64,000 nucleotides of DNA from positions 1 through 64,000 of the forward strand of contig JALQPE010002307.1 of assembly GCA_030407315.1 (NCBI GenBank), written 5' to 3'. Below are positions 12,012 through 41,969 of the stretch, in pieces. The position numbers were made by a program, and so were the translations under genes. Source of the stretch: Asparagopsis taxiformis. Its lineage: Eukaryota > Rhodophyta > Florideophyceae > Bonnemaisoniales > Bonnemaisoniaceae. Under the pieces are notes generated by a model, which was not told where the DNA came from, searched no databases, and saw nothing but the letters and a program-made list of their open reading frames with translations. Every line of letters begins with the position of its first letter. The stretch's first letter is position 1.

Positions 12012-12200
12012 AAAACTGAATAGCAGTTCCGACAGCTTGTCCTGAGAAAGCAAATCCGCCTTAACGATGACTTTGCTGTAAGAAAACAGAGTACTTACAG
12101 TTCTGACAGCTTGTCCAGAGAAAACAAATCCGCCTTAACGATGACTTTGCTGTAAGAAAACACAGTAATTACAGTTCCGACAGCTTGTCCTGAAAACCCG
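12012..12200. repeat. tandem half-palindromes, period about 75 bp
   Basis: Two and a half units each carry CAGTTCYGACAGCTTGTCC. In the full units this is followed by the right half of the palindrome (AACGATGACTTTGCTGTAAG, near 12062 and 12134). The left palindrome half is missing, so these are degraded derivatives of the foldback array. Confidence 0.55.
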
Positions 12201-20989: not shown

Positions 20990-23668
20990 GACGTATCGGG
21001 CAATAGTTTTCCGTTTGCGGATGAGTTGTCAAGACGGGTGTACCGTTGCGATTAGGCGCCTCCTCGGCGTGGTCTCTTGCTAGAGAAAGGTCGTAGAACC
21101 AAACATTAGTATCATCATCGAAGGATGTTTCACCCTGCGGTGCGTGCGTAGCCAACAGAGTTGGTATTTCATCGTCAATAGTGACGGGCGTCTCGCCGTT
21201 AGTTTCAACACGCGAAAGGGCGTCTGGTAGTTGGTGAACCCGACCGGGTCGATAGACTATTTGATAGTCAAATTCCGCAAGGCGGAGGCGCCAACGGCAT
21301 AGTCTCCCTGAAGGGTCGTGGATATTCATGAGCCAACGCAGCGCGTTATGGTCCGTCCGGACTACAAACTTTGTTTGCTCCAAGTATGGACGTAGGATAG
21401 TGACGGCCCATACGACGGCTAGACACTCACGCTCCGTAGGGGAGTAACCTTTTTCAGGTTTAGTCAAGGTCCGCGACCAATAGCCAATTGGCTTGAGATC
21501 GTTCTCTTCCCCTTGCTGCTGAAGCAGAGCGCATCCTATTTGGTATGCGGAAGCGTCCGTGTCTACGGTGTAGGGTTGACCCAACTTGGGTAGAGCCAGT
21601 ATCGGCGGTTTGATCATAACCTCTTTGAGAGCGTTGAACGCGCGGCGTTGGTCCTCGGTAGGAGGTTCTTTCCCGAATTTAGGGAGGCTGTCTTTGGTCA
21701 GCATTTCGTTCAAGGGGTGCGCAATTGCGGCATACCCTTTGATGAACCGTCGAAAGACGCCAAAGCTTCCGAGGAAGGATCGCATTTGCGTAGGCGTTTG
21801 CGGAAAGATCGCGTCAGCGATAGCCGAAGTGGCGTTCTGTGCAACAGCTAGCTTTCCTGGCATCACGACATGCCCCAGGTAATCAACCTTCTTTTCGAAG
21901 AAATGACACTTTGTCAACTTCAGGGTGACACCTGCTTCCCGTAGGAGGGAGAGTACTTGGTCCACATGGTGGAGATGTTCGGCCTCGTCCCGAGAGAATA
22001 CGATCACATCGTCTAAGTAAATCAGACAGGTCTGCCAGCGAACGCTGCTAAGAATAATGTCGATGGCACGCTGAAACGTTGCCGGAGCATTCTTTAAGCC
22101 AAAAGGCAAACGCTTGAAGCGATAGGTCCCCAAGTGGGAGGTGAATGCCGTTTTGTCACGGTCGTCCTGTGCAACAGGGATCTGCCAATAGCCAGAATTA
22201 CAATCCAATGTGGTGAATACTTGAGCATCTCCGAGGGAGTCAATACAATCATCCATTCGTGGAAGGGGGTACACATCATCGACAGTTATGTCGTTAAGAC
22301 CCCTGTAGTCGACGCAAAAGCGTAATTTACCATCCTTCTTCGGACAAGAACCACTGGGCTAGCCCATTCGGAGGTCGACGGTTCGATCACTCCTTTTTCC
22401 AGCATGCTGGTTATTTCCTTACGGGCAATCTCTCGGCGAGCGGGTCCCATCCGGTAGGGTTGTTGCCGTCTAGGCTTGCTCCCTTCGACTATGTCGATTC
22501 GGTGTTCCGTAGCGCGGATGTCCCCTAGGGATCCATCCCACATAGACTCGTGTCGAGATAGCATGCTAAGGATGCGTTCCCTCAACGGGATTTGACCAAG
22601 GTGGTCCAGAGAGACTTCTTGCTTCCAGCTTGATGGTTGGGTGGCCTCGGCCTCTTGCTCCTGAGGGAGAGTAGTCACCATAGTGGAGGCCTCTTGGGAG
22701 GAAGGGGTAGAACGGCTGAGAGCCATGGGGCGCATTGGCCGTTCGGGTGCCCGAAGGGCATAGCCTATAATTGTTCCTTTAGGGGGGTACTTGTCGGAGG
22801 TACCGAAGTTAGTTAATATAGTCAGGAATTCCTGTCGCGGGATGACTTCCGCAACCCCATTCGGGATAGAGACACGATGTCGGTGAAGGATCCGATCTCT
22901 CGGTGAGAGTATACTCAAGCCGCCACCGGCGCATACAACAGTAGTTGTTACTTGACTCCGCGGAGGAACATTCACACTTTGTGACAACCGAATGCCATGA
23001 GGCTGGCGGTCTAAGTTAATCCCATTAGAGGGTCGCGAGGCATCCACGTAGCACGAAAGGGTGGGGGATGTTTTACGCGTAGGCGACATCACTAGGATAG
23101 CTATCGACCCGCCGTCGTGAATATCAATTCGTTGTGCCCGGCACCTAATTGCGTCTACGTGGGTATTCATTGCCCCAGTTCCCAAGATGAGGGGTACGGC
23201 CAACTTAGGCGCGACGAAGAATTCTTCCTCAAAGGACTTGTGGCCTAACTGTAATGACAGTATTATCTTGCCTTTTATCCGAAGAGGATTGCCGTTAGCA
23301 TCGGCCAGTTGCGGAACTTTCCCCGTAGGGACTTGGAATTGTTCCCAATTGTGGGGTAAGCTCCTTTCATGGATGACCGATGGTCCGGACCCGGTGTCCA
23401 TCACCATACGCATGGGCGTGAGAATTGACGGATCGAGTCCGATGGAACCCATTACTACGTAATGGGCGGCCTTAAGCAGGCATGAGGCTTTCGGCCTTGA
23501 GGTTCGAGTCCCTGTGGGGGAACCCGAAGGGGTTGGTGTCTGGGAAAGACTTTGGTCCCTAGAGGGAGTTGCAGCCTTTTCCTGCGGAGGTGGTTGTGGT
23601 GAGATGTCCACCGAGTAGCGTAATCGCTCCACCTCCTGACGGGAGTGCGACACCTCACTCCCCGTCAT
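20990..23668 (-). pseudogene. Ty3/Gypsy pol of element C (protease, RT, RNase H; truncated)
   Basis: The frame begins with ATG at 23668 and contains the aspartic protease motif DTGSG (near 23395). Near 22340 one base is missing inside the conserved VLVPKKDGK-type segment, shifting the frame. The RT then continues with FTTLDCNSGYWQIPV, FGLKNAPATFQRA and the catalytic YLDD. RNase H follows with DTDASAYQIG and RTDHNALRWLMN. Homology to element B ends after LTTHPQTE near 21000, so the HHCC and DDE parts of the integrase and the chromodomain are missing. The enzyme would have copied element RNA into DNA in cytoplasmic particles; this copy is dead by both truncation and frameshift. Confidence 0.85.
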
Positions 23669-25592
23669 TAGTTTTCCGACGACGTGTCAGAGTCGTCGGA
23701 GGTTTCCAAGGCGTCGGCAACGTCTTGAGCCGTTACGGAAGATCCGTTACGTTCTAAAACGTCTCGCCTCAGAGGGCCCAATTTGGGATGATTTTCGTCA
23801 TCGGCGAACGCAACCATGCGTGTTGGAGGGTTTGACCGTTGGAGCACGGCTTTAGGTAATCCCTTTTTCGGTTGAACCGATTGGACTGGCGCTGTTGGCG
23901 GCGCATAACCTGCTCCGGTTCTTGCTGGTAAGCGTAGTTCGCAAAGGCGAAGTAAGTTCCCACTGAGGGTGGTAGGTAAGGACAAGTGTATAACACGTGC
24001 CCTGGTTGGCGACAGCCAGAGCATCTCCAAGTAACAGCCCCTTCGGGGATCATACTCTCAGCGAGTTTAAGATGTTCTCCCGTTAGGGTAGGGGCCTGCA
24101 TTGGCGCGCCCATTGGGTTCCCGGTAGGGGAAGGTAAGGTCGGCGGCGGGGTCCGCGGTATCACAGCCGGTTCTCCGGGTACGGTAGCGAGCAACGCTTT
24201 GCGTTTACGTTCCGCGATTTCCCGAGTAGGGTAAGCCTTAGGTTTCGCGGGTAGCGATGCTCTTAAAGAGTCCCCGAGTCCTTTAGCAAGGTTACGGACA
24301 GCAAGAAAATCTTCTCCGCCACTGCGGCCTATAGTCACCTTGACGGTGTGTTTAACCTCTGGGCGTAGGCCCTTGAGGTAATAGTTGACCAAGTCTCTTT
24401 CCGAGAAGACGTTCGCACACAGGAGTGCAGAGTCCTGCAGTCTGTCTGCGTAGGCAGCTTCGTCCTCATCCGGCCCTTGCCGTATACGCGTTACTGCGTC
24501 ATATGCGTCCGCTAGGACATTGTCCGTCGCGTAGCGAGCCAGAAGGGCGTTAACGGCTTGAGGCCAAGTGATCTGCTGGTGCAGGTGGTTGAGAAGCTTG
24601 CGCTTCCGCGCCTCAGCGGCGATAAATCGTTGAGGTTCTCCTTCCAGGAAATACTTGAGTAACTTGGTAGCTTCTCCTTCCGAGACTCCGCATGAATCAC
24701 ATGCATCTTGAAATTCCGCGAGGAACCGGAGGATATCGATGGGTTCCGTACCATCGAACGGCGTGAATGACGCGTTGAAATTACGGATCTTCTCCGTTAG
24801 CTTATACAAGCTTCTTGATTTACCCATTGGGGTATCGGTCGTTAGGGACTTGTTCTTGAGTCGGTAGTACCGATAGGAGACCACTAGGTCGAATGCGGGT
24901 TCGCGGGCCTTCAAAGGCACTAAGCCTTCCTCAAGGGGTCCTTCTTCATCATCCCACGAGGGGTTTTCCGGTACAGATCCGGTGGCACGAGTGTGCTGTC
25001 TCGTGCGAGAGATGTTCCCTGTTTGGGATAGTGATTCGGCGAGGGCGTCGACACGGTCCGACAGGTGTCGGGTTGCTTCCGCGACTTGATCCAATCGGGG
25101 ATCTTCTTCTTCCTCCCTACCGGATGTAGGGTCAGGGAAGTCAGCCGATCGGATGCGGCGAGCAGGAAACTCCTGTTGTCCTAATGGACTGGCACTAAAG
25201 CCGTGAATCGAAAGCTCCTCCAGACGAGTTTCCAAAAGGGACACGCGCTTAGCGAATTCGGCTTTGACCTGATTCCAGGTTTCCACTAGGAACTCGGCGT
25301 CCCGATCTTGGGTGGCTTCTCGGCTGGCGGCCATCAGCTTTGGCTCGACCAGTTCCATGACGGTTTCGACCGTAGCGTCTACGATTTCCGCCCTGCGGTC
25401 TTGAACAGTCTTCTCGACGACGGTGCTGAATTCAGCCTTGAACTCTTCCAACCGTTCGTTGAAGATTCGGTCGGCTCGGTCTTGCAGGGTGTTAATCACC
25501 ACGCCCTCTTCGGCGATCAGATCCGAATCGGATAAGTCGCTGGCAGGCGCTATGTCCTCACTAGAGGGTCCCGCTGTAGGGTTACGAGGCAT
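23668..25592 (-). pseudogene. Ty3/Gypsy gag of element C
   Basis: Begins MPRNPTAG at 25592. It carries an acidic, coiled-coil-rich N-terminus and a capsid-like core (IRNFNASFTPFDGTEPIDIL to NVFSERDLVNYYLKGLRP). A single zinc knuckle CSGCRQPGHVLYTC (CX2CX4HX4C) lies near 24010. A shift near 23865 moves the C-terminal tail, with MVAFADDEN and ending DTSSEN, into another frame. The stop TAA overlaps the pol start as TAATG. Gag packages the RNA and forms the particle. Length (about 640 residues including the shifted tail) is normal for large chromoviruses. Confidence 0.85.
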
Positions 25593-25655
25593 CGTGAAGA
25601 TGATTGTGAAGGAAGATTTCTCTCAAAGAGACTTACCCGAGGGTACAAGGTTCTA

Positions 25656-25668
25656 GGTCGAGAGACCA
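25656..25668 (-). other. primer-binding site of element C
   Basis: TGGTCTCTCGACC on the minus strand, one base inside the LTR end. The TGG start pairs with a tRNA CCA end. It is identical to the site in element B at 29831. It is not the common initiator-Met type; I cannot name the tRNA. Confidence 0.75.
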
Positions 25669-25669
25669 A

Positions 25670-26352
25670 TGTAGCAGGTAGAAAATCCGCTAGAGCGGCA
25701 AACCACCCGACAGGTGTCCCGAGCCTCGGTAGAGGAAGCGGTAGAGCAGATGAACCTTATAGGTACCCGGCGGGTAGTCTCGTGAGGGAGAAGGGATCGC
25801 TACCCGGAGGGGGTTGTGCGATTATAGCGCTCACGCGAGATGCGTATTAATGGAGCAAAATGACGTAATCCGTCGAGCTGTTGGCTAACCCTAAGGTTTT
25901 CCCGGAGAGGGGTTGAACAATAGGTATGCGAACACTGTTCCTGTGGGTCGTAATTCCACTTGAGTTTACGTTACTCTAGAAACCGTGCCTACTGGCTATT
26001 CCAGTGGCCGTTTTATACTAAGTCTACTGTAAGCTAGGGTTAGTGGTTAGGAATAAATATCCAGTTAGTGACCAATCAGAACCCAATTACTGGCGCTCGC
26101 CTACCCGCGAGGTCATTGCCAATAGGCTTACATTGTAATGTATGGCTGATTAGCCTAAGTTAAAATTTGCCCCTTGTGGGGTCTTGGCCGGGGCCGATAG
26201 GCCCGGGTGGGGTTATTTGTCAGCCATAGCTGGTCTTAAGTATAGGAAACACGCCAGTTGGCTGGTGCCTTCTGATTGGCACATCCCGTAAGTGGGTACC
26301 CAATAGGGAAGCGACACGGCTCGATCAGCGAGGACCGCCAGGCGGTACGACA
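25670..26352 (-). repeat. 5' LTR of element C (683 bp)
   Basis: On the minus strand it starts TGTCGTACCGCC and ends CTACCTGCTACA. The layout parallels the 659-bp LTR of element B (starts TGTCATACCACG, ends CTACCTACTACA), including CCCCACAAGGGGCAAATTTTAACT. It is clearly diverged from B, so C is a different, older insertion of the same family. Confidence 0.85.
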
Positions 26353-26375
26353 CTACGAACTAACCTAGGAACGAC

Positions 26376-28553
26376 CTAGTAGCGACGGGAACGCTTGCCC
26401 GCAGGGTCATACGGACCAGGGCCTTCGCCGCGGCTATCGTGGCTGCGGCTGCGAGTGGGCTGAACGAAGCCCGGCGCGTACGGATCGACGGTCTGCGTGG
26501 CCACGGGGGCTCGCTCGCGACGCGACGCGGGATCCCTAGCGTAAGGATCCGCAGTCCCGTGACTGCGCGTATCCGAAGGGTACGCCACCGCGTGGCCATA
26601 CCCAACGGGGTTTCCGTAGCCGCCGCCACTTGCGTATCCATAGGGATCATTACGAACGCCAACGGGCGGCGCGTAACTACGAGTCGCCGCGGCGAGACGC
26701 TCGGAAATCGCGCGTTCCGTTGCCAAGCGGGCAGTCAGGTCCAACGTCTGGGCCCTGAACTCTTCGGCTGCGCGAGCCACGGATGAGATGAGGGAACGAA
26801 TAACCCAGCCGTCCGCACGGGGCGGAGCGGCCATCGACGTACCGAGAAGCCGACGGGCATCTCATCGGAGACGCGGTCGTCCAGGCTAACGAAGCGTGGC
26901 GCGCGTTCGGCCGGCGTGGCCATATCCGAGCGACCGACACGGGCAACGTCGCCCCCTTCCGTGGCCTCGCGAGGCACAATTTCACGAGGATCCGGCGCAC
27001 GCGGCGCTTCATCTTGCTGGCCACGACGGCCAGAACGTGACCCGCGAGGTCGATTACTGCCACCGAGGCCGCCGTAGTAGCCAGAACGATTGCCACGACG
27101 GCGTTCGACTCGGGAAACGTCCCGCGGTACGTACGCGCCGTCGCTGCGTACCTGGACGAACTCTTGGTTGTCCCCGGTCGCGTAATCCGGGCGCACAACG
27201 CGATACTCCGGCCCCAACGCGAGGGCGCCGCGAGTCTCCGCCACCACGCCGGTGACGGAAACGAACATGTCGGAGCCTTCGACCGGCATTGCACAAAGCA
27301 ATTCGTAATCTGCCAGGTAGTCCAGCGTGGACTCCGGCAGTAGGCACGCGCGCCCAAACACACGCCGCTCCACGTAAAGCGAGCAAGCGAACATCGCTGC
27401 GTGCTCAACGTCCACCGCCGTGAGGAAACGTTCTTTCACCTCTGCAGGCGCGTCCTGCATCGTTCCGGTGAAGTAATGTACCACGCGAGGTAATAACGTA
27501 GATGACCCGCGGGGATACGGATACGCGCCTACCACGTCTGGCAGCGTCGGGAAATAATCCCTACCCGGAACACCTAGCGAGGTGGACGCGTGCGACACAC
27601 GAAAGTCGTCCGCGTCGGCGTAACGGAGCGCGAAGTAGTCGTCGTACGATATGACGCGGTTGCCCATAACGCTCAACGAGAGCGCGGTTTTCCACTCGGC
27701 ACGCTGCCGCTCCGTCAATGTCCACGGACACACGTACACGGACGCCAACGCAGTGAACGGCGGTTCCTCGGGCGTCCCCTTCCATAAGTACGCGTCCATG
27801 ATGTCTACGTAGACCGCATCGTCAGCGTCGCGCAACCATGAACGGTCGCAACGAATCGACGCCGGGATCTGGTAACGAACCGATCCCGCGGTCCCGTGGG
27901 CGAAACGACGCCCGGCACGACGCCCCCACGAATCTTCGGCAATGCGCATGTATTCGAGCACTGCGCGTGCGTCCAAACGATCTTTGGCCAGCGTGGCCAC
28001 GTCCTCGTCCGACACAGCCACCCGAGGCAGCACCGCCCACGCGTGGGATAGGAACTCGCGTCGAGTGCGACTCCGTTGCGATCGGAGTTCCGACGGTTCC
28101 CGCGGGAACGTCCAACCCCGACGAGTCCCGACGGGGAGACTGGGGTGAACCCTCACGACGAGGTTCGCCAGCGCGCGACGCTGCCCCGGCACGACGTAAA
28201 CGATCGGCCGCGGCCATCGCAGCCACTCCACGACCAGAGGGCACGACCTCCGGCACTATCGGTGGCTCCGGACTCGAGACAGACGCCGCGGCGTCGCCAT
28301 CAGCAGGGGCAGCGGCCCCTACAGCCTCGACAGGCGGAACGGGAGCCGTCGGGCGTGACGATGAGGCAACGGCCTGCGGAGCAACGGCTTGAACCGCCCC
28401 AACGGACGGGGCGGGCGCGACGGACGCTTCCGTCGCTGGCGGCGCACCGACCCTGGCGAGGGAGGGAGCGCCCTGCGAAGGGTTCCTCGCTCCACCTCCA
28501 GCAGAGCCGGCGGGCCGCGGAGTGTTAGCATCGGTGCTACGGGTCGTAACCAT
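26376..28553 (-). pseudogene. antisense accessory gene of element A (frameshifted)
   Basis: Minus-strand gene opposite to the inferred gag-pol direction. It starts MVTTRSTDANTPRPAG at 28553, the first ATG after a TATTTAAG box. The N-terminus (28553 to about 28130) is a Pro/Ala/Ser-rich disordered tract. After a frame change near 28130 comes a globular region with LAKDRLDARAVLEYM, IRCDRSWLRDADDAVYVDIM and LPRVVHYFTGTM (28130 to about 26830). Another shift follows, then a tail with RAQTLDLTARLATERAISER and a Gly/Tyr/Arg-rich end at 26376. It aligns by eye with the gene at 36920-40089 in element B. The second frame has no ATG near its beginning. I recognise no domain; function is unknown. Confidence 0.7.
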
Positions 28554-28763
28554 CGTGGTTACGCTGTACGCAATATTCACGACGAGTGCAACGAGCACAA
28601 GGACGAAAGCCACGCGGGCAAGGCGAAACGAGAGAACGAGGAGAACGGAAGCAGCCAGGAGTACCCAGCGGGGGAAAAGGGAGTGCGGAAAGGAAAGGCA
28701 ACGGCCTGGATGTCGATGGTGAGAGGAAGGGTGAGCGACGATCGCCAACACGTTAAGCCGCGG

Positions 28764-28771
28764 CTTAAATA
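28764..28771 (-). promoter_or_regulatory. TATA-like box of the antisense gene in A
   Basis: TATTTAAG on the minus strand. The first minus-strand ATG after it is at 28553, about 210 bp on. The same octamer stands before the homologous gene in element B. Confidence 0.45.
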
Positions 28772-29170
28772 GACTTCCGACGACCGTTGTCGTAATGCCC
28801 GTTGGCAGATTCACGAAATGGCCGCGGCCTGCGTGCGTATCACGCTGAATCGAAGCACACCCGCGTGGTGGAATTGGACACTGCATTCGACTGCAAGAAA
28901 CGCCTACGCGGGGCATTGGCGGACGATGCCGACGGGCGGGCCTCGATGATTACGAAAGAGCCGGAGCGCACGCGCGCGCTCCGGCGCCGTGGCGATTCGA
29001 TCAGCCAACCGGGCCGCGTACGGTTAAACGAGATTTTTCGGGACAACTGCCACGTCCGCAGTTGTACCCGAAGAGGCGCCACGGCCCCGTGTCTCAGGCG
29101 CGTCCTGACGGGCCTCGCGTGGCCGGGACGTCCACGTGTGGGGGTGGGGCTGTGTAGTATACGTGGCAAT

Positions 29171-29829
29171 TGTCATACCACGCGGTGGTCTGCCCTGGTG
29201 GGGTCGTGTCAACATCCTATTGGATGACCCCGGGTCGGGACTGACCAATAGAAACAGCCTCGCTGTATCTCGCCCAAGTCAAGGGAATGGACCCACTGGG
29301 ACAATTAAAGACCCCACAAGGGGCAAATTTTAACTAAGCTGACTCAGCTAACTTTACACTGTAACACTAACAGTTGGTGATCTCGCGGGCTTCCGCAGTC
29401 GCCATAATCAGGGATCTGATTGGTGCACATAAGGATATTTATTCCTAACTGTCTACCTACCCTAACTGTTTACAGTAACTTAGACTAGTATAAAACGCCT
29501 CTGGATTAGCCAGAGTGCTTAACCTTTTAGAGGTAACGTAAACTCACGTGGAATTTACGACTCCACTGAACAGTGTTTGCATCGCTCTTTTCTATCCTTC
29601 TAGGACGAATTAGCTTTAGCTATACAGCTCGACGGGTTACGTCTTTCGCTCCATCAATACGCACTTCGTGCGTGAGCACCCCCAACCTTCACCCGGCATT
29701 ACCGGAAGGCCTTTCGTGGTATACACGCCATTGGCGGTTGACGCAAGATTCGCTTGCTCTACCACGCTACCGAAGCTCGGGACACCTGTAGGGTGGTTTT
29801 GCCGCTTTGCGGATTTTCTACCTACTACA
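29171..29829 (+). repeat. 5' LTR of element B (659 bp)
   Basis: Begins TGTCATACCACG and ends CTACCTACTACA, the usual TG...CA ends. A TATAAAA box at 29489-29495 should position transcription of the genomic RNA. It is preceded by target duplication GCAAT (29166-29170). Confidence 0.95.
29489..29495 (+). promoter_or_regulatory. LTR TATA box
   Basis: TATAAAA in the middle of the 5' LTR. The identical copy is at 40917-40923 in the 3' LTR. Confidence 0.7.
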
Positions 29830-29830
29830 T

Positions 29831-29843
29831 TGGTCTCTCGACC
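29831..29843 (+). other. primer-binding site of element B
   Basis: TGGTCTCTCGACC follows the LTR end after one base. It matches element C exactly, so the family uses one tRNA primer. Confidence 0.75.
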
Positions 29844-29945
29844 TAGAATCTTACCGACATCTTAGCCGACCGGCGACACACCGAAACCACTCAAGAAGAG
29901 TAAACTCGTCGTGAGACGTGAGCTCATTGAACAAGAGTAGAAGTG

Positions 29946-31874
29946 ATGCCATCGGACAAGTCTCCGGAACATTCTGACTCCGAGTCAGACCCATCGGGGG
30001 AGGTTCAACCCAAGAATTCGTCACTGAGGAAGGAGTCTTCCGACTTATGCATGAACATGCAGACAAGATTCTCAATGATAAATTGAAAGAGATGCGCGAC
30101 GAGATCAGCCAAGCTGTTGAGGACACCCTCGATGATAGACACGGCGATCTCGTCTCAACTCTCGTGGATCACACGATTGATTTGCTTGCACCCAAGCTAA
30201 AGCCATTTGCCACGAAGTGGTAGATGAGAAAGAAGTAGAAGTCTTCTCGGGAACGTGGAAGTCTATCCGTGTGGATTTTCTACAACGGGTTATCCGGCTT
30301 GAGAAGAAGGTCACCGACCTACAAAGGAGAAGCTACGCTAGTTCTTCTTCCGATCATCAGCACCAAGGGCTGTGGAATCAACAAGACGGCACTGCCGAGA
30401 ACAGCGTAGCTGTGGAAGCCGAGAAGCTCGACAAGGTCGTTGACGTCACCAGACGTTTGTCGGATCGAGTGGATTTACTCAGCGAGTCTCTCGCCCGTCC
30501 GGTACCAAGTCGAAATCCCAACGTGGGTGACCCAGTCTTTGGGTTTGGTGATACACCTTCGAATCCATTCGAAACAGAAGAAGGACCCCTGGAACCAGGC
30601 TTAACTCCTTTAAGAGCCCGCGAACCCGCGTTCGATCGTGTAGTATCCTACCGGTATTACCGGTTACAAGACAAGTCGTCATCGACAGAAGCTCCGAACG
30701 GAAAGAGTAGAAGTCTCTACAAGATAACGGAAAAGATCCGGAACTTCAATGCGTCCTTGACGCCGTTCGATGGAACGCAACCCATCGATATACTTCGATT
30801 CCTTGCGGAGTACCAAGATGCTTGTGACTCCTGCGGAGTATCAGAAGGAATAGCAACAAAGTTGCTACGTTATTTCCTTGAAGGAGATGCGCAACGATTC
30901 ATCGCGTCCGAATCTCGGAAAAGGAAGTTGCTAAATCAACTGCACCAGCAGATAACGTGGCCACAGGCCGTCCATGCTTTACTTTCTCGTTATGCAACGG
31001 ATACAGTTTTGGCTGACGCCTACGACGCGGTCACGCGTATTAAACAAGAACCTCACGAAGATGAGGCAGAATACGCCGATAGACTGCAAGAGGCCGCACT
31101 GTTGTGTGCTAATGTTTTCTCTGAGAGAGACTTGGTAAACTATTACCTCAAAGGGCTACGCCCGGGGTAAAAGACACCGTTAAGGTGACTGTTGGCCGAG
31201 ACGGCGAAGACTTCCTTGCGGTACGCAATTTGGCTAAAGGACTCGGAGATTCCTTAAGAGCCACCACAGCCGACACGGCTAAGCCCAAGATGTACCCTAG
31301 TAGGGAGCTTGCCGAAAGGAAACGCAAAGCGTTATTAGCTACCATGGCTAATGAAGACCTCGGAATGAGGAGAGAAATGTCTACGTCGCAGACGTTACAA
31401 CCACTGACCGTGGGACCGAACGCGGAGACACCGCCGATGGAGGTACCGCCCCTCACAGAGGAACATGTGAGTCTTGCCGAATCCATGATCCCGAAGGGAG
31501 CGGTCAATTGGCGCTGCTCCGGATGCCGGCAACCCGGTCACGTGCTGTACACATGCCCGTACCTCTCCCGTTCCGTGGGAATGTATTTCGCTTTCGCGAA
31601 CTATGCATACCAGCAAGAGCCGGAACAAGTCATGCGCCGCCAGCAACGGCAATTCGACAAGTTCAAGAAGAAGCAGGTCCCTGCTAAAACAGTTCTCCAA
31701 CGGCAGAAACCGTTTCCGCGAATGGTCGCGTTTGCCGAGGACGACAACGTCGTTGAACAAACAAATCTGGCTTCCGGATTGCAACGGAGTATTGGTCCTT
31801 CTCGTTCGGAAGAAACCGCAGTTGATGCTCTAGCATCTTCAGATGAAACATCCGACACTTCGTCGGAAAACTAA
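29946..31874 (+). pseudogene. Ty3/Gypsy gag of element B, three frame breaks
   Basis: Starts MPSDKSPEHSD at 29946. The N-terminal part moves to a second frame near 30010 (EFVTEEGVFRLMHEHADK) and to a third near 30210. The core then runs 30217-31170 (IRNFNASLTPFDGTQPIDIL to YYLKGLRP). After a third break near 31165 it continues as 31185-31874 with the zinc knuckle CSGCRQPGHVLYTC and the tail ending DTSSEN. Each shift fits loss of one base when compared with gag of element C. The product would be the RNA-binding particle protein. Because the LTRs are nearly identical, it either moved using another copy's Gag or the breaks are recent or technical. Confidence 0.85.
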
Positions 31875-31888
31875 CCGGGGGGAGTGAG

Positions 31889-34800
31889 GTGTCGCGCTCC
31901 CGCCAGGGGGTGGAACAGCTTCGCTGTGGGGTGGATATCGCACCATCTACACCTCCACAGGGTGGAACGAAGAAACCAAAACGGTTGAACCGTCCTACCC
32001 AGACACCAACCGGGGATATCCCTTATCCCCTCCCCTCTCAGCCAAAGGCTGCATGTCTCTTGAAGGCAGCCCACTACGTGGTTTTAGGTTCGATCGGAAT
32101 TTCCGAGACACTTCTAACGCCCATGCGTATGGTTATGGACACCGGTTCCGGTCCTTCGGTCGTCCAAGAATCAACCTTACCAAAGGGATGGAAGGCCTAT
32201 GCCGCGCAGACCGGGAATATCCCTCAACTGGCAGACGCCAATGGTAATCCTCTCAGGATAACGGGAAGAATCAAGCTGCTAATACAGCTAGGCCGAAAGC
32301 TTCTGGACGCAGAATTCTTTGTAGCCCCTAAGCTGGCAGTACCAGTTATCCTGGGAACAGGTATCATGAACTCGCATGTAGAGGCAATTCGATGCCGCGC
32401 TCAGCGCATTGATGTGCATGATGGTGGCTCGATAGCCATACTGCTTATGCAGAATGTGAGTAAAATGAACAACTCTTCTTCTTCTTGCTATATACATGAT
32501 TCAAGCCCTTCGCAGGGTACTGACTTGGACCACCAGTCCAACAGGATCCGGCTAGCAAGAGAAATCACCCTTCCCCCCATGAGTCAAGTAACCGCATCGG
32601 TTGTCTGTGCTGGGGGCGGACTAAGCCTCCTCGAGGCGAAGGGAAAACTTTTCCACCGACAGCGGATCTCAATGCCGAACGGCATTGCCGAAATCATTCC
32701 TCGAACAGTCTTCACTGTTATTCTAACGAATTTTGGGTCAGCAGAGAGATACCTCCCGAAGGGGACGGTTGTTGGTATTGCTCGTCGAGCACCCGGCACA
32801 GCCGATCGAAAGCTCCCCAGTGAGTTATCCTCTTCCGGTACAGACCGTATCATCAGTCTGACCAACCCGGCGACGGGAACCAAGGAGAAAGAGAATCCGC
32901 AATGGCGGGAGGATGTATCCTTGGAACACCTTCAGCAACCGCAGTTGAAGGAGAAAATTATAGCGATGCTATCGCAGCATGAGTCCATGTGGGACGGGTC
33001 TCTTGGAGACATTAAAGCAACCGAGCATCGGATCGATGTAATCGAAGGAAGTCGACCTCGTCGACAGCAACCATACCGGATGGGACCCTTGAGAAGGGAG
33101 CTAGCAAGTAAGGAGATTATCTCCATGCTAGAGAAAGGGGTCATCGAACCCTCGAATTCTGAGTGGGCTAGCCCAGTTGTCTTGGTACCCAAGAAGGATG
33201 GTAAGCTACGCTTTTGCGTTGACTACCGCCGTCTCAACGATATCACAATATCGGACGCTTATCCGTTGCCTCGTATGGACGATTGTATAGACTCCTTAGG
33301 AGATGCACGCGTGTTCACCACGCTTGATTGCAACTCAGGCTATTGGCAAATACCCGTTGCCTCCGAGGATCGGGATAAGACGGCCTTTACATCGCACCTT
33401 GGAACATATCGATTTAAACGATTGCCCTTCGGGCTGAAGAATGCGCCCGCCACGTTCCAACGTGCTATCGATATTATCTTAAGCAGCGTACGCTGGCAAA
33501 CTTGTCTCATCTATCTTGACGACGTCATCGTCTTCTCACGGAGTGAGGAAGAACACCTTCATCAGGTGGATCAGGTACTCACACTGTTGAGGAAGGCAGG
33601 GGTAACCCTAAAACTGGCCAAGTGCCACTTCTTCGAAGCGAAGGTAGATTACCTTGGACATGTGGTTATGCCAGGTAAGCTGGCGGTCGCCCAAACGGCA
33701 ACGGACGCTATTGCGAAAGCAACTTTTCCGACCACACCTACGCAAATGCGTTCTTTCCTCGGGAGCTGCGGGGTCTTCCGCCGTTTCGTGAAGGGGTACG
33801 CGGATATCTCCCACCCCCTCAACGCGATGTTGACTAAGGAAAACCTACCGAGCTTCGGTTCAATGCCTCCAACAGAGGAACAACGCCACGCGTTTGAACA
33901 ACTCAAGGAATCCTTGGTGCAACCACCAATATTGGCTCTGCCAAGAGTGGGTAAACCCTACATCGTAGACACGGACGCTTCTGCGTATCAGATAGGGTGT
34001 GCGCTGTTGCAACAGCAGGATGACGACGACTATCGTCCTGTAGGATACTGGTCGCGGACCTTAACCAAACCCGAACGGGGATATTCTCCGACAGAGCGCG
34101 AGTGTCTCGCTGTAGTATGGGCAGTCACTACCCTCAGACCATACCTTGAGCAAACAAAGTTTGTGGTACGATCCGATCATAACGCGTTGCGTTGGTTGAT
34201 GAACATCACCGACCCATCCGGGCGCCTTTGCCGTTGGCGACTCCGCCTTTCAGAGTTTGACTACACCATAGTCTATCGCCCCGGTAGGGTTCACCAAGTA
34301 CCAGACGCGTTATCGCGTGTTGAAACAGAAGGGTTAGACCCACATCCGGTGGATGACGAAATTCCCACACTCTTCGCGTATGATCTTACCCAGGAAGTAC
34401 CTGTTACAGAAGAGATGAACCCTTGGTTCTTTGATGTGCTCATCGCGCGGAATTACACTGACAAATCCCTAACGGGAATAAACCCAGCTGTCCTAACGAC
34501 ACACCCTCAGACAGAGGGTTCCGAACCGATAACACTCAACGAGTGGATTGAGGAGCAACGCTCTGATGACTTTTGTCAACAAGTATTGACAAGTCAGAAG
34601 TCTGACACTGTCTTCTTCGAAGATGACAAAGGTGTCTTGCGACGTAAATCCACCCTTGACAATTCCCACCAAGTGGTGGTACCAAGAACACTCAGGCCCC
34701 GCCTGTTGAAGATGTGTCATCACGACGTACTCGCGGGTCACCCCGGACAAAACCGTATGTATGAGACTATGCGTCTCTCGTATTATTGGCCTGCCATGGC

Positions 34801-35908
34801 CGCGGATATAACCGCTACGGTTGAACGTTGTCAGGCTTGCGCCAAGAACCGCCTCAAGTTGCGTAGACACGCAAACACATTGAAACTATTCCCAGCTTCA
34901 GCACCGCTGGAAGAAGTCTCTATAGACTTATTAGGCCCGTTGCCTAAAACAAAGAAGGGTAACCTTCACCTTTTAGTAATTACCTGTCGCTTCACGAAGC
35001 TTACTCAGGTTGTACCATTACGCAGTATCACTGCTTACCATGTGGCTGTTGCCTTTTGCACCCACTGGGTTTTCAAGTACGGTCCCCCTAGGACGTTGCT
35101 TTCCGATAATGGACCTCAGTTTGCTTCCAAACTTTTTCAGGCTGTTTGCCTGCAACTTGGAACAAAGAACTTGTTCACAACAACCTACCACCCTCAGACC
35201 AACGGTCAGGTGGAACGGTATAACCGTACGTTGTTGAACATGTTACGCAACTACGTAAACGAAAACCAGAATGACTGGGATGTATACGCACCAGCGTTGA
35301 CTTACGCGTATAATACGCACGTGCATCGCACGACAGGGACGACACCCTTTGACCTTATCCTAAGTCGACCCCCACCACCTTACTCCCTTCATCACTCGAC
35401 GAGATCACGGCAAAAACCGGACGCTTTCTTGAAACAGGATTTCCTGCAGCGGATTGCTCACGCAATTGAAAAGGCCGGTCAACGGCTACAAGCCACGCAA
35501 GCGCGTTATAAGCGAGACTTTGACCGGAGAGTCCGGAAGACCAAACGACTCCTTCAGGAGGGTGACTACGTCTACCTTGACAACCCCGAAGTACGGGAAC
35601 GAAACAAGTTGACGCCACTGGCGCAAGGACCTTTTAAGGTTGCTAAAGCCGGTAGGCGTACCGTCCATATTGAACGTGATGGACTTGTCGAACAAGTTAG
35701 CCACGACCGCGTGACGTATGCGCCACAACCTGAACCGGAAATACCGCACTCACGGTTAACTTCTAACGGAGCACCCGTACCTGCGGCAAGAACCGACGAT
35801 CAAGCCGCCAACACGGTGCCGACTATGGCGGAAGAACGACTACGTCGCGAGACATCAGGTCCGCAGCGCGTACCTCTTCACACCGGACAACCCGAGGTCA
35901 CCCTGTAA
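31889..35908 (+). CDS. Ty3/Gypsy pol polyprotein of element B
   Basis: An uninterrupted frame of about 1340 codons. Domains in order: aspartic protease with DTGSG at residues 84-88; reverse transcriptase with FTTLDCNSGYWQIPV and YLDD at about residue 542; RNase H with DTDASAYQIG near 694; integrase zinc finger (HHDVLAGH with CQAC) near 942. The integrase core triad lies in SIDLLGP, LSDNGPQ and QVERYNR (about 1011, 1071 and 1107). A GPF-type C-terminal module follows with QGPFKVAKAGRR. There is no ATG at the front: the frame opens right after the gag TAA in the -1 frame, so it needs frameshifting or reinitiation. The chromodomain that should follow sits in another frame just downstream. All catalytic residues I can check are present. 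Confidence 0.93.
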   Translation: MSRSRQGVEQLRCGVDIAPSTPPQGGTKKPKRLNRPTQTPTGDIPYPLPSQPKAACLLKAAHYVVLGSIGISETLLTPMRMVMDTGSGPSVVQESTLPKGWKAYAAQTGNIPQLADANGNPLRITGRIKLLIQLGRKLLDAEFFVAPKLAVPVILGTGIMNSHVEAIRCRAQRIDVHDGGSIAILLMQNVSKMNNSSSSCYIHDSSPSQGTDLDHQSNRIRLAREITLPPMSQVTASVVCAGGGLSLLEAKGKLFHRQRISMPNGIAEIIPRTVFTVILTNFGSAERYLPKGTVVGIARRAPGTADRKLPSELSSSGTDRIISLTNPATGTKEKENPQWREDVSLEHLQQPQLKEKIIAMLSQHESMWDGSLGDIKATEHRIDVIEGSRPRRQQPYRMGPLRRELASKEIISMLEKGVIEPSNSEWASPVVLVPKKDGKLRFCVDYRRLNDITISDAYPLPRMDDCIDSLGDARVFTTLDCNSGYWQIPVASEDRDKTAFTSHLGTYRFKRLPFGLKNAPATFQRAIDIILSSVRWQTCLIYLDDVIVFSRSEEEHLHQVDQVLTLLRKAGVTLKLAKCHFFEAKVDYLGHVVMPGKLAVAQTATDAIAKATFPTTPTQMRSFLGSCGVFRRFVKGYADISHPLNAMLTKENLPSFGSMPPTEEQRHAFEQLKESLVQPPILALPRVGKPYIVDTDASAYQIGCALLQQQDDDDYRPVGYWSRTLTKPERGYSPTERECLAVVWAVTTLRPYLEQTKFVVRSDHNALRWLMNITDPSGRLCRWRLRLSEFDYTIVYRPGRVHQVPDALSRVETEGLDPHPVDDEIPTLFAYDLTQEVPVTEEMNPWFFDVLIARNYTDKSLTGINPAVLTTHPQTEGSEPITLNEWIEEQRSDDFCQQVLTSQKSDTVFFEDDKGVLRRKSTLDNSHQVVVPRTLRPRLLKMCHHDVLAGHPGQNRMYETMRLSYYWPAMAADITATVERCQACAKNRLKLRRHANTLKLFPASAPLEEVSIDLLGPLPKTKKGNLHLLVITCRFTKLTQVVPLRSITAYHVAVAFCTHWVFKYGPPRTLLSDNGPQFASKLFQAVCLQLGTKNLFTTTYHPQTNGQVERYNRTLLNMLRNYVNENQNDWDVYAPALTYAYNTHVHRTTGTTPFDLILSRPPPPYSLHHSTRSRQKPDAFLKQDFLQRIAHAIEKAGQRLQATQARYKRDFDRRVRKTKRLLQEGDYVYLDNPEVRERNKLTPLAQGPFKVAKAGRRTVHIERDGLVEQVSHDRVTYAPQPEPEIPHSRLTSNGAPVPAARTDDQAANTVPTMAEERLRRETSGPQRVPLHTGQPEVTL

Positions 35909-35916
35909 CCAAGCCT

Positions 35917-36588
35917 TTGTCATCCCGCCCCGCGGTTGAAGGTAATTCCGTAACTAACACACCGAGTATCGGTCCGAGACGAACCGTCTTTGAGGAGGGG
36001 GCCCAGGCTGACATACGTCGTAATAACAATGCTGCTTCACAGCCAATGCCCACTCAAATTGACCTCGCCGAGGATGAAACTCTTGACACAATGCAGGAAC
36101 CTGCTTCCCAAGACGCCAACAAGACGTTCTCCCGGCTACGCCGATCAACCCATAAGGCACCAACCGGAACAAGTCCGCAGAAGAATAGTCGCTCTCGTCG
36201 ACAAACAAGAATAAGCCGACCACAAGGCATGGAAATATCCCAAGAAGCCACTTCGGCTGAGCCGATAAACCCTGCGGGTGACACGGCCAACACCGGAAGC
36301 AGAGGACGCTCGTTGAGCCAAGAGGTTATACCCGAACCGGGAACTGTCTCCCACAACCTGGGACCACCTGAGGAACAGGAATTCGCCATAGACGACTTGA
36401 TCGATTATGTCGTCGACGACGATCAGGAGGAATGGTTCCTCGTGAAGTGGTACGGGTATCGTGACCCTACGTGGACGCAACGGCACAACGTGCCAGACGA
36501 GCAAATATCTCGGTACTTCCGGAAAGTTGACCGCCAAGCGGGTAAGAAAACGATTAAACGACGAACGGCCAAAAGGCGTGGTAAGTAG
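35917..36588 (+). pseudogene. C-terminal chromodomain part of pol, out of frame
   Basis: This frame has no ATG start and lies 8 bases after the pol stop, shifted as by one lost base, so it is best read as the detached pol C-terminus. After a low-complexity stretch, about residues 155-215 form a chromodomain: FAIDDLIDYVVDDDQEEWFL, VKWYGYRDPTWTQRHNVPD and a C-terminal helix. The aromatic VKWYGY core is well kept. In chromoviruses this domain directs integration to methylated-histone chromatin. A basic tail ends the frame. Confidence 0.8.
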
Positions 36589-36919
36589 AACGGCAGAGCT
36601 GCCCCACAGCGAAGCTGTTGTACGCAAGAGCGTCAGTAGGAACGGCTAGTGATCGCGGCGTCACCGCTAATGACCACAAGGTTGAGCCGGTAAGACCCCA
36701 CGAACAGCACCCGTCGGGTTGGCCAAATAACAAAAACCGCGAGTGGTAGAAATATGAAGCCAATCGGCGGACGAAAAATTCCATAAAAACAACAAAAACA
36801 TTCCAAATTTTAATGGGAGACATGACAAAGCCGCACACGGCGCATGGATGAACGATCTAACATGAGAGTGAAACGCAAATGCGTATAAGAAGGTAAACCC
36901 GGTTACGGAAGTAAGACGT

Positions 36920-39900
36920 CTAACGTCGGAAGTTGTCGGAGGGACGGGGGCGCTGATGCGAAGGGTAGGAAGAGGTTGGCCTCAATGACCGGTTGGTCGG
37001 ATGTTGAGCCGTAGAACGACGAGTGTCGCAAGGACGAATGCGTCCAGCATCCCGACGGGAAGTGGTTAAACGAGCCGGTGGGCGATGATGAGGCACAGCA
37101 GGGACTGAAGGAACCGATACCGTCGGAGAATTAGTGACCACCTCATCGGACATATCCGGAGACTCCTCCCTCACGGGATCCCGTGATTCGATGCGCTGAA
37201 GCAACGGCGGAGTCGTGTTAACTGGAGAAGCGCGCCGGGGGCGGACATTTCGACCATCGTCGCGCTCAGCGGGAGAACGATCCCGACGACGACCGGATAT
37301 CCCTCCTCGAGGTTGAATACTAGCTGGAGTCTCCAGGGCGTGTGTCGTATCCCTACCCCGCTCATGCGGTATGCTCCTACGCGCTAAGCGCAATTCTTCC
37401 TCAAGCTCTCGGACTCTTGTCACTAGTTCATCGAACGTCTTCTGCCTCGCAGTTAAGTCCTTTTCCAATTTTGACACCTTCTCTTCCGCTAAGCGGCGAC
37501 CTGTACGCTCTGCGCGATAGCGCGTTACTGCAGCATCCCGTCGCTCGCGACTTTCCTTGTACCGAGTACCCAACGTGACACACGTTAACGCCAAAGTATC
37601 CAACGCATTGCGAACGGGGTAACCGTCATCCCGTGGATGAAACACCGACGAAAGTTGGCCATCACCAAGACTATCCGCCAATTGGCGCACATTCGTAACC
37701 GATAATAACTGCGCCGCAGACAAACTGGATCCAAGAACATCCGCGCGAGCGGTAGCACGACCGACCGTACCGTCATCCTCGAGTGACTGACCGGATTGAC
37801 GGTCTGGTGACAGAAACGGCGCTGCCGTAGAAGCCGGAAGACCCGGACGGGTAGAGCGAGAAAGATCCAGTGGGGCTGGTGGAGGGACAACTGCCGGGGG
37901 TTCCATCGCTTCGTAAGAAGCTGGCTCTACGGGAGCAGTTGGATGAGGAGAGACGCCGGAATCGGCTGGACGATAATGACCAGCAGGTGTCGGACGCCCA
38001 GGGCGTGGAACGTGCATCTCCCGTTCGGGTTTGTACATGTAGTCCTCCAAATCTCCGTCGGAGTAACTTGGCGGGTCGACCGTAAGATAGCCGTCCTCGG
38101 CAAATTCACCGTCCCGACGAAACGGAGGAGTCTCAACCACAGTCCCGTCCCGGGTAGTATACGCCGCGGCCTTCGCCGGTTTGAAGGGCAAACTCGGATG
38201 CGAGTAAAGGAAGATCTTCTCGGGCGCAACGCCTTCGATTGTACAAGCAATCTCCTCTATACCATCGGTGGTCTTGTAAGAAGCCTCGAGGAGGTCGATG
38301 ATAACCTTCACATCTACGCTACGCGTCTTCGGTACAACCGGTGATAACGGCATCTCATGGAATGTCTTCCACGTCGTGATAGCCGACTCTGCCAAGTGTT
38401 TGGCCAATACCGGGAGGAACCCTCTAGTCTCTACGAGACGAGCCAATTCCAAACCAATCATGAGCTCTCGCTCTAACAGGACATAGTCCAAAAACCGAGG
38501 CTTCACCCAAGGACGGGGATCCGCCTCGACCACACTGTGGAAATACAGCATCGCTGGTGTATCCCCAATGGGCAAACACAAGGGCGGTGAGTTCTCGCCT
38601 TCCCATCGGGAATCTTCCAACGTCGAATTCAGCTCTGCTGTAGGTACCACCAAGTTCGCAGTGCGATGGTCTATGCTCCGATTAGCTCGGTAACCGAACA
38701 CTCGGTAGTCAAGTGACGACACTTGCAAACCGGTAGTCCGGGTTAGGTGACGCGCGTGTACACGCATGTGATGTTCCAACATACCGGTATCCGGGCGGGG
38801 CGGATACGCAAACCATCTTGACCTAACGATAGGTAAGTCGGGGACGCTCCCTTGATCCGAGTGTGACTCGAACAATCGACGGTTCATCCGCTCAACGTAC
38901 AAGGCATCGCCTGGGTGGAGAAGAAAGGTGCGGTCGCACAGCAACGTGTGTGGTACACGGAAATGTCGCATCGGCCGACACGACGGCAATTGGGCATAAG
39001 CCGACCAGCTGTTATGCAGCGCATGGGTATCACGGTGTTTAACACCTGCCATGAGACGGAGGTCTCGACGTAAGTCGGTAACGTCCTCGCTTAAAAACTC
39101 CCGTAGGGGCAGGCGCGAAAAGGGTAATACTCCCACGGAGCTCTCAAATACCTTGAAAAAGGCAACTCATGTGAGTCAAAGACCATGAGCTCCGAAGCAT
39201 TCGAAGGATAAAATTCGCCTTCGCGACGCCAATCGGCGGAAGGAGCCGGAACCCGCTTGGGCGATGAATAAGTCGGCGCAGCCGTAACAGCAGGAGCTGG
39301 TTTTTGGTACGGATCTACCAACTGACCTTGTCTTCCTTGCGGTTGCACCGTCTCATATCCACCGGACCCATACGCGGCTCGCGTTGAATTGCTGGCAACC
39401 AGCCCGCGACCCGCTTCTTCGGCCGCCTTGCGGTTTCGCGCATCGATGATGAATTGCCGATTACGGCTGTATAAGTCCTCGTAAGGATTCTTGGACTTAA
39501 CCGGTTCAGCCGTAACGGGATTCCGTGTGGACGAGCGAGGGTTCGCATAAGGATCCGGATACTCCGATGGACGGGGGACGATGGAACGGCCTGTGACGGC
39601 AGGAGCGGCAGAAGTCGCGGGGGTCGAACTGGGCTGCGAAGCCGCAGCAGCGTCAACGATAATTTCTGCCGGTTCCGGCGTGCGGCGTGAAGGCTGGGGA
39701 GTCCCTTGCTTGTCCGATGGCGGTGAACGCGGGGTATCCCGTTGAACTTCAACTTCTTCTACCTCAGGATGAGGATCGCTTGGGGGCGGAACTACCGAAG
39801 GCAGCACAACCGGTTTACCGGGATTGTCTTTACGAGGCGTAACCTCAGGTGAGGGACTCGGCGGATGGTGAGCGGCCGAAGGTGTCTTCGCCTGTTCTTG

Positions 39901-40089
39901 ACCAGTCCCTGTAGAGGGTTTAGCCTGCGAACCGGAATCCGGTGGTTGAGAAGAAGAAGCTGGAACGCCAGCAGCGGAAGCGGAAGGGTTAGTTGTCGGC
40001 GTCGCCGGGGTTGGAGTCGAAGGTGCGCGCGACGCCTGATGGCGGGTGGTTTGACGGCGGGAGGCCGCCCGCGTAGAACGTGTTGGCAT
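36920..40089 (-). pseudogene. antisense accessory gene of element B (about 1050 codons, one frame break)
   Basis: Runs opposite to gag-pol between the chromodomain and the 3' LTR. It starts MPTRSTRAASRRQ at 40089 (an ATG at 40122 is also possible, but lies only 18 bp from the TATA-like box). Residues 1 to about 300 are Pro/Ser/Thr-rich and disordered. A frame change near 39115 follows APWEYYPF. The second frame (GTG as first start-like codon, 39136) holds a globular region with EDVTDLRRD, TLLCDRTFLLHPGDALYVER and YFHSVVEAD. A linker rich in Pro follows, then a coiled coil (LAEEKVSKLEKDLTARQKTF through RVRELEEELRLARR) and an Arg-rich tail ending DNFRR at 36920. The gene of element A matches it in order and in several blocks. 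No known domain is recognised; it is neither envelope-like nor a polymerase part. Confidence 0.75.
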
Positions 40090-40139
40090 GTTGCCTGTCG
40101 GGCTGTTAATGCGATCGACCATGCTGAGTAACAGCAGTT

Positions 40140-40147
40140 CTTAAATA
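40140..40147 (-). promoter_or_regulatory. TATA-like box of the antisense gene in B
   Basis: TATTTAAG on the minus strand, 50 bp before the ATG at 40089. Element A has the same octamer before its copy. Confidence 0.5.
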
Positions 40148-40586
40148 CTCCACTGGAGTCAGAAGCAACGCAACAGACAAGTCGTACGGTCGCCACAGGC
40201 GTGAGGTCTTGCTTGAATCCCGAAGGGACGCCGCGGAAGAACGCAAGGTGGGTATTACCCTTAACGCAAGAAAAATCGCGTATCACGCGCGCAAACCTCA
40301 GCGAGGCACAAGACTTGAATCGCCAGGCGAGATCGCTTCGCAAACCGGCAGGACCGGAGGGAGAACAAGGTTGGACAACACGGCAAAGCCGGTGAAAGGA
40401 CGCAAACCTGAAAGGTCGCTACTCAGATGATGAGCGACGCTCGGGAGTGGAACCGTGTGCACGGGTAAATATCAGCCAAATTTTGGCGGTCAAAATTTTT
40501 ATCCGGTTGGCCGGCCACGGCGGTGGAAATAATTTGGGAATTTAAAATCAGTAGATTTTTGGAATTGTCGGGACGACAATTGGCTT
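40148..40586. other. spacer between antisense gene and 3' LTR
   Basis: Non-coding stretch holding the presumed upstream region of the antisense gene. A/T-rich runs and inverted GCCAAATTTTGGC-like motifs (about 40476-40488) are visible. No gene seen. Confidence 0.5.
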
Positions 40587-40598
40587 AGGAGGGGGCGA
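40587..40598 (+). other. polypurine tract of element B
   Basis: AGGAGGGGGCGA lies directly before the TG that starts the 3' LTR, the expected place for plus-strand DNA priming. One C interrupts the purine run. Confidence 0.75.
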
Positions 40599-41257
40599 TG
40601 TCATACCACGCGGTGGTCTGCCCTGGTGGGGTCGTGTCAACATCCTATTGGATGACCCCGGGTCGGGACTGACCAATAGAAACAGCCTCGCTGTATCTCG
40701 CCCAAGTCAAGGGAATGGACCCACTGGGACAATTAAAGACCCCACAAGGGGCAAATTTTAACTAAGCTGACTCAGCTAACTTTACACTGTAACACTAACA
40801 GTTGGTGATCTCGCGGGCTTCCGCAGTCGCCATAATCAGGGATCTGATTGGTGCACATAATGATATTTATTCCTAACTGTCTACCTACCCTAACTGTTTA
40901 CAGTAACTTAGACTAGTATAAAACGCCTCTGGATTAGCCAGAGTGCTTAACCTTTTAGAGGTAACGTAAACTCACGTGGAATTTACGACTCCACTGAACA
41001 GTGTTTGCATCGCTCTTTTCTATCCTTCTAGGATGAATTAGCTTTAGCTATACAGCTCGACGGGTTACGTCTTTCGCTCCATCAATACGCACTTCGTGCG
41101 TGAGCACCCCCAACCTTCACCCGGCATTACCGGAAGGCCTTTCGTGGTATACACGCCATTGGCGGTTGACGCAAGATTCGCTTGCTCTACCACGCTACCG
41201 AAGCTCGGGACACCTGTAGGGTGGTTTTGCCGCTTTGCGGATTTTCTACCTACTACA
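40599..41257 (+). repeat. 3' LTR of element B (659 bp)
   Basis: Same length and ends as the 5' LTR, with two substitutions noticed. It is followed by GCAAT (41258-41262), the second target-site copy. Confidence 0.95.
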
Positions 41258-41262
41258 GCAAT

Positions 41263-41817
41263 TCCGAAATTGCCAATATTTACGTTTTCCGCGGAATTCG
41301 AATTTCGGCGGACACGACCGGCGACAGCAATGCACGAACATTGCTGGCGCGTGCGCGCGCGCAACTGGCACACGTGTGCAACGAACGTACTGGCAACGGC
41401 CAACGGACCAACGGGTCCCTACGTGTGACCCACAAGGTCCTTTCCCATTCGGGGACGTTACGAACAGTGTTTACACTGTAAAGCGATGCCATCGTGGCCA
41501 TATAGGTATTGGCATCGCGCCGGGAGGGAAAGGGGACAAGACAACGATCGGGCAACGTGCTCTAGTCTACGACTGACTTCTACGTTACGTATTACGTTTT
41601 CGCCTAACGAGGCTTCGTCTCCGTCGAGCTGCGTACTCCCTACCCATCGCCACACGTGAGGCTGATCGCGTGTAGTGCCTACGGGCTTGGTTGAGAGCGC
41701 CTCCGGTGACGTGCCACCTCGTTCGTTAACGTAGTCCACGCGTGGATCGTTCGTCGTGACGCCCGTGTCTACCTGCTAACCTATTCTCTACCCTATCCTC
41801 TATCTGCTACCAAACAT
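41263..41817. mobile_element. probable downstream remainder of element A
   Basis: Joins 29170 once element B is removed. It has no coding frame of note. A purine run GGGAGGGAAAGGGGACAAG near 41522 could be a polypurine tract. The end (CTACCTGCTAACC through CTATCTGCTACC near 41771-41813) resembles the LTR 3' end style of B and C. I cannot fix LTR borders, so the call is tentative. Confidence 0.35.
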
Positions 41818-41969
41818 ACAGTCAAAACACCAGCGGGTGGACTTATTCGTTTCGTTAAGGACAGCGTGTCCGTGGCTCGTACCAGCTACTTCTAGAACTA
41901 ACGTCGTTCCACAGACACGTTCAATGGACAACCCAATGCGACAACCCGCGATGGCTCTCAAGCGAATGA

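Follow-up and report, generated by a model that had tools for sequence, protein, structure and literature searches.

The window described here, a 64,000-nucleotide stretch on contig C2181 of a 141.5-Mb Asparagopsis taxiformis assembly (the genome that was searched), contains a nest of LTR retrotransposons in which the elements here termed A and B have each inserted into an element termed C (Table 1). Element B is complete: its LTRs have TG...CA ends and are 99.7% identical across 659 bp, a 5-bp target duplication (GCAAT) is found on either side of it, and contig C1967 carries the site without B, with GCAAT present there as a single copy. The large minus-strand gene that is the main subject of this analysis, which occupies positions 36920-40122 and is followed by the 3' LTR of B and preceded by its chromodomain ORF, therefore lies inside a mobile unit.

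Table 1. Retrotransposon features of the window, in order of position
Feature	Position	Strand	Basis
Element A (B3 group): 5' LTR, gag, pol to RNase H; 3' part missing	20886..26352	-	LTR, Pfam and gag comparison; identity to C1804
Element C (a different chromodomain Ty3 family), remnant from antisense gene to first bases of 3' LTR	26353..29170	+	98% to C1967:10048-12870
Antisense gene of C, diverged homologue, frame broken here	26376..28553	-	
Element B, complete chromodomain Ty3 insertion	29171..41257	+	LTR pair, TG...CA, GCAAT, empty site in C1967
5' LTR of B	29171..29829	+	LTR pair comparison
gag-like region of B, two frames in the window copy	30253..31634	+	63-68% identity to element A gag
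pol ORF of B: reverse transcriptase, RNase H, integrase	32123..35908	+	Pfam
ORF with chromodomain-like segment, frame differs from pol ORF	36046..36588	+	PF00385
C-terminal part of the B antisense gene, 710-aa ORF with core, coiled-coil-like segment and basic tail	36920..39052	-	
N-terminal part of the B antisense gene, 343-aa ORF, frameshifted versus remainder	39091..40122	-	
Leader, antisense ORF to 3' LTR; purine-rich tract directly abuts LTR	40123..40598	.	sequence
3' LTR of B	40599..41257	+	LTR pair comparison
Remaining 3' LTR of C, displaced by B insertion	41258..41914	+	97% to C1967:12865-13521; LTR pair in C1967

The Pfam order in the pol ORF of B is reverse transcriptase (RT)-RNase H and then integrase, with a weak protease match that falls below the cut-off. 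The chromodomain match (E 4e-4, 20.6 bits) is also under its Pfam cut-off of 25.1, and the chromodomain-like segment recurs in all four of the groups into which related copies fall (B1, to which B belongs, B2, B3 and C). The assignment of B to the chromodomain Ty3 elements is built from its LTR pair, the order of RT-RNase H and integrase, and this sub-cut-off chromodomain. The chromodomain ORF of B is out of frame with pol; in the B3 copy on contig C1804, both form one ORF of 1,360 codons.

Element C is seen at greater length in C1967, where LTRs at 2-655 (clipped by the contig end) and 12858-13520 are 96% identical and enclose pol (in several broken frames) and chromodomain segments on one strand, with an antisense ORF of 847 codons from the first ATG on the opposite strand; this arrangement recurs in the C copies of contigs C1568 and C12. 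As read, B would lie about 18 bp inside the 3' LTR of C, provided that this LTR starts with TGTAG. The sequence-only reading of the window had assigned the second, diverged copy of the antisense gene (26376-28553) to element A; its homology to the B gene has held up, whereas its assignment has not, and the gene belongs to C. On the minus strand, the LTR of A starts at 26352, 23 bp past the stop of this ORF, which therefore lies outside A, and no purine-rich tract is found between the two; the boundary of A and the arrangement in C1967 together exclude the ORF as a sense-oriented part of A. Element A is nearly identical to the B3 element on C1804 (98.5% in a gag-pol stretch of 1,923 bp and 99.4% in 166 bp of LTR), in which the antisense ORF is intact at 1,088 codons. 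Thus, the group of A carries the antisense gene too, and the copy of A in the window has lost its 3' part. Of the C-type loci L009-L038, 30 in all and each covered for 1.5 kb per side, only that of the window adjoins the gag and LTR of A; another (L032) adjoins a B-type LTR.

Several further features were recorded. Directly after the LTR of element C, a Ty1/copia-like reverse transcriptase fragment (PF07727, ORF 43056-44195) and adjacent ORFs occupy 42111-44960, and positions 2514-12075 are densely packed with direct and inverted repeat arrays whose units measure 35 and 100-300 nucleotides (parts of them recur at C1967:17936-18374). A more distant Ty3 pol, about 31-50% identical to that of B, lies on the minus strand of C1967 at 14115-17732 (L040). 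Host-like genes are found in long unbroken ORFs at 53.5-63.6 kb of the window, including a 925-residue ORF (57723-60500) that unites ubiquitin, thioredoxin and PUB domains. Elsewhere in the assembly there are 13 matches to the phycobiliprotein family, nine of them near full length on contig C469; one of these is a phycocyanin beta chain, with PDB entries 5y6p and then 6kgx as its best matches, entries that represent the red-algal genera Griffithsia and Porphyridium, so that the gene content, too, points to a red-algal host.

Copies and reading frames of the antisense gene

From the letters of the window, a minus-strand gene of about 1050 codons had been proposed in a fully bounded element, downstream of pol and ahead of the 3' LTR. 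Its location and orientation are confirmed, whereas the window copy is split by one frameshift into ORFs of 343 and 710 residues in different frames. Both a near-identical database protein (P0003) and the sister copies are continuous across this frameshift, and the continuity of the sister copies rules out an intron between the two ORFs. A single ORF of 1,067 codons, beginning at an ATG, is present in six of the seven B1 sister loci (L002-L008), that of L006 being 755 codons long; overall, the gene measures about 1,060-1,090 codons in B1-B3 and about 730-740 in C. Many copies, including both in the window, are broken, as judged by reading frames alone. A frame that arose by chance is ruled out: the antisense region stays open for as many as 748 codons, whereas the longest open stretches of 300 dinucleotide-preserving shuffles averaged 179 codons and never exceeded 361. 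In L010, and likewise in some other copies, the C-type frame is also open upstream of MVTTRST (upstream of 3198, minus strand), where it reads through a hydrophobic segment; L048 has a stop 66 codons before MVTTRST, DNA identity in this part is 60%, and the upstream segment may not be coding.

The layout of pol, chromodomain, opposite-strand gene and LTR is common to B1, B2, B3 and C. The order of the first three was found in all eight B1 loci (L001-L008, including that of the window), read with 1.5-kb flanks that leave the LTR outside view; in the one B2 copy (C856) and the one B3 copy (C1804) that were read out to pol; and in all three C elements. The LTR beyond the antisense gene was seen in B of the window, C856, C1804 and the three C elements. 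Searches of the genome gave at least 68 rows with the 710-residue part as query, at least 103 with the C-type protein of the window, and at least 92 (group B3) with the database protein P0002, all three counts being lower bounds in which some copies contribute two rows. Among the 38 rows of the first search that span residues 1-710 (the other 30 of the 68 are shorter and were excluded from this count), 27 combine an open frame of 1,000 codons or more with a match free of stops, comprising 17 of 21 in B1 (95-100% identity) and 10 of 17 in B2 (76-78%). The same is true of 50 of the B3 rows. Family members without the frame had been named in the sequence-only reading as evidence to the contrary; many members keep it.

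Divergence and selection

The antisense genes of B1 and B2 (L002 versus L042) differ with a dN of 0.151 and a dS of 0.745 (dN/dS 0.20), and those of the C copies C1 and C2 (L010 versus L048) with a dN of 0.114 and a dS of 0.462 (dN/dS 0.25). In the former pair, 173, 133 and 403 of the 709 differences fall at first, second and third codon positions, respectively, and the five alternative frames contain 17-42 stops per sequence, with dN/dS above 1 in four of the five and 0.30 in the minus-1 frame. In the latter pair the gene frame alone is free of stops; the others have 4-21 and ratios above 1, except for the minus-1 frame (0.31). That frame shares the third positions of the gene and has 20-41 stops. 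Along the B1-B2 alignment, 75-codon windows have ratios of 0.06-0.11 in the core (positions 301-600) and reach 0.57 outside it, with a short final window at 0.09; the last C1-C2 window has a ratio of 0.88 with very few changes. Close pairs within groups mostly lie between 0.15 and 0.40, with 0.63 for L044-L045 (18 and 10 changes). Selection thus acts on the antisense protein, beyond the mere maintenance of an open frame, as had been read from the preservation of order and frame in two diverged copies; a dN/dS near 1, the contrary outcome named at that point, was not obtained.

The pol genes of B and the B2 element, by comparison, have a dN of 0.026, a dS of 0.31 and a ratio of 0.08, and their chromodomain ORFs a ratio of 0.40. 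Given dN/dS of 0.20-0.25 against 0.08, the antisense protein is constrained, yet less so than pol. Silent divergence between B1 and B2 also differs by region, the dS of the antisense module (about 0.74) exceeding that of pol, and the LTRs share 95% identity. When L042, L046 and L047 are set against 32187-41257 of the window, B1 and B2 look like mosaics (pol protein 95%, LTR DNA 95%, antisense module dS 0.74). Exchange of modules between B subfamilies by recombination is a likely explanation of the higher antisense dS, and this possible exchange weakens the case for simple joint descent of the gene with pol.

The antisense protein and its relatives

The B and C proteins are remote homologues by sequence comparison, matching one another at a BLASTP E of 2e-7 and, as profiles, with 95% probability over 207 columns (E 4e-8). 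A block common to both has the sequence RVPHTLxCDRTFLLHPGDALYVERM in the B proteins and QIPASIRCDRSWLRDADDAVYVDIM in those of C; at a BLASTP threshold of 1e-3, the B3 protein matches that of C2, with no match to that of C1. The antisense protein is 75-78% identical to B1 in B2, 41-54% in B3 and 24-28% in C, and RT gives a like ranking of divergence from B1 (95% in B2, 79% in B3 and 65-66% in two C copies; the RT of the third, in C1967, aligns piecewise at 50-79%).

The anatomy that had been proposed for the protein is largely recovered in composition for B1-B3, which have an N-terminus rich in proline, serine and threonine (38-47% of the first 200 residues), a hydrophobic middle and a basic tail (charge +12 from residue 1001 to the end, 62-88 residues, in each group), whereas the C proteins have a weakly basic tail, with a charge of +3 or +4 in the last block. 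The coiled coil is a putative one, judged from the sequence. A Pfam search of the proteins gave no meaningful domain and only chance-level matches, to Filament (E 0.25, residues 838-917 of B1) and DIMCO_N (E 0.28, the database protein P0004), in agreement with the proposal of an element-encoded antisense protein that lacks a recognised domain. No relative was found by sequence in the PDB up to an E of 1, or among viral contigs. Both AlphaFold models are of low confidence (mean pLDDT 38.5 and 34.6) and lend no support to any biochemical activity. A search of 5.8 billion proteins, scored in part over just the 8,000 candidates with the greatest word overlap, gave four matching proteins in all. 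P0002, considered as a protein of another species, was instead identified as the B3 group of the same genome. P0004 may come from another organism, because no close copy of it is present in the rows for the Asparagopsis taxiformis assembly, where its identity is 33-37%.

Interpretation and relation to known systems

The location and orientation of the gene, its many copies and their open frames, the selection upon it and the homology of its B and C forms support a reading that we hold with considerable confidence: a group of chromodomain Ty3 elements is ambisense, with gag-pol on one strand and a large gene on the opposite strand between the chromodomain and the 3' LTR, and this gene predates the split of the lineages, changes more quickly than pol and is kept by purifying selection at the protein level. 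It has probably descended together with pol, and its protein would be made from a minus-strand transcript initiating in the leader or the 3' LTR. The anatomy of the protein suggests, far more tentatively, a nuclear accessory factor of the element, in which the disordered N-terminus and basic tail might bind nucleic acid or chromatin and confer nuclear entry, the coiled coil might form multimers, and the conserved core might bind a partner. Such a factor could regulate expression of the element or passage of its integration complex, as has been proposed for the gene23/TRP28 proteins of plants.

Other origins and roles can be imagined for a gene of this kind. It could have been taken up from the host in a single capture and then transmitted with the element, in the manner of retroviral transduction, and it does sit in the usual place for extra genes and has no convincing Pfam domain to tell its origin; however, it is present in four groups with RT divergence of up to about 35%, the genome searches gave at least 68, 103 and 92 rows, and each of the 13 contexts that were followed to pol is an element, so that a single capture is very unlikely. 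No host gene, which the sequence-only reading had proposed to look for, appeared among the contexts read, most copies being read over short flanks (1.5 kb per side for the other C-type loci among L009-L038); an old capture that preceded the split of the groups is possible. An antisense RNA might instead be what matters, for example in silencing or limiting the element, with the open frame incidental, and non-coding antisense RNAs are known for other elements (PMC7264820). The concentration of B1-B2 differences at third positions, the dN/dS of 0.20-0.25 and the failure of every shuffle to give such a frame make this extremely improbable.

An envelope-like or second structural (gag-like) protein is likewise unlikely, if less so. 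A disordered start, a mostly helical core (in the low-confidence models) and a basic tail would suit a nucleocapsid-like protein, but neither protein profile matches the gag of element A. For an envelope, the peak 19-residue mean hydropathy of five proteins (1.02, 1.05, 1.37, 1.28 and 1.71) reveals no clear membrane segment by hydropathy scan alone: C2 has one window, within the core, that accounts for the value of 1.71, whereas the peaks of the other four, including C1 (1.28), reach only 1.0-1.4, and the gene is antisense rather than sense to gag-pol.

The ambisense arrangement favoured here has precedents. The gene has the position and orientation of an antisense ORF of the aORF-3R type (between pol and the 3' LTR, on the opposite strand), occurs in many copies, and in this respect resembles the antisense ORFs of the plant elements Grande (gene23, maize), RIRE2 (rice) and Retand (Silene), which encode TRP28 (PF04195) proteins, likewise occur in many copies and in divergent elements, and include a protein, that of Grande, that is nuclear (PMC11963269, PMC7264820). 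Unlike the plant TRP28 proteins, the antisense proteins have no PF04195 match in any of six proteins at an E up to 1, and their host is a red alga; Retand, moreover, belongs to a non-chromovirus lineage, unlike the chromodomain elements described here. The sequence-only reading had cited plant Ty3 elements as precedent, which is correct and yet narrower than the literature, since a fungal case also exists. A Boty-like element of Botrytis cinerea has CHROMO among its gag-pol domains and carries brtn-106 (PMC4227169), and Zhao 2011 is cited on the Boty antisense gene brtn (PMC8365987). As far as descriptions allow comparison, Boty, too, is a Ty3 element with a chromodomain and an antisense gene, in a fungal host, unlike the B and C elements; neither antisense orientation nor its combination with a chromodomain is therefore new. 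HBZ of HTLV-1, an antisense-encoded nuclear protein of a retroelement, has been named as a comparison (PMC11963269); it is a gene of a human retrovirus, and its likeness to the B and C protein is offered as an analogy only.

The word 'antisense' is absent from the main text on the oomycete Chronos elements (PMC5348765), the consulted passages on brown-algal elements describe no antisense gene (PMC12477816), and among the papers listed by the literature searches no title or abstract opening mentions this protein or an antisense gene of a red-algal element. Within the reach of these searches, the novelty lies in the protein family, the host group, the co-occurrence of four divergent groups in a single genome and the selection that was measured. 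It is conceivable, as a tentative extension, that red-algal chromodomain elements are ambisense as a clade and that an ancient, otherwise unknown family of minus-strand proteins serves as their own nuclear regulator; if so, antisense regulators would have arisen independently in four settings, namely retroviruses and the elements of plants, fungi and red algae. In the consulted portions of these papers, antisense accessory genes of LTR retrotransposons are without an established function. A constrained core, together with four divergent groups in one genome, provides a comparative handle on that function, and the phenomenon of antisense genes is extended to a red alga, with selection on the protein.
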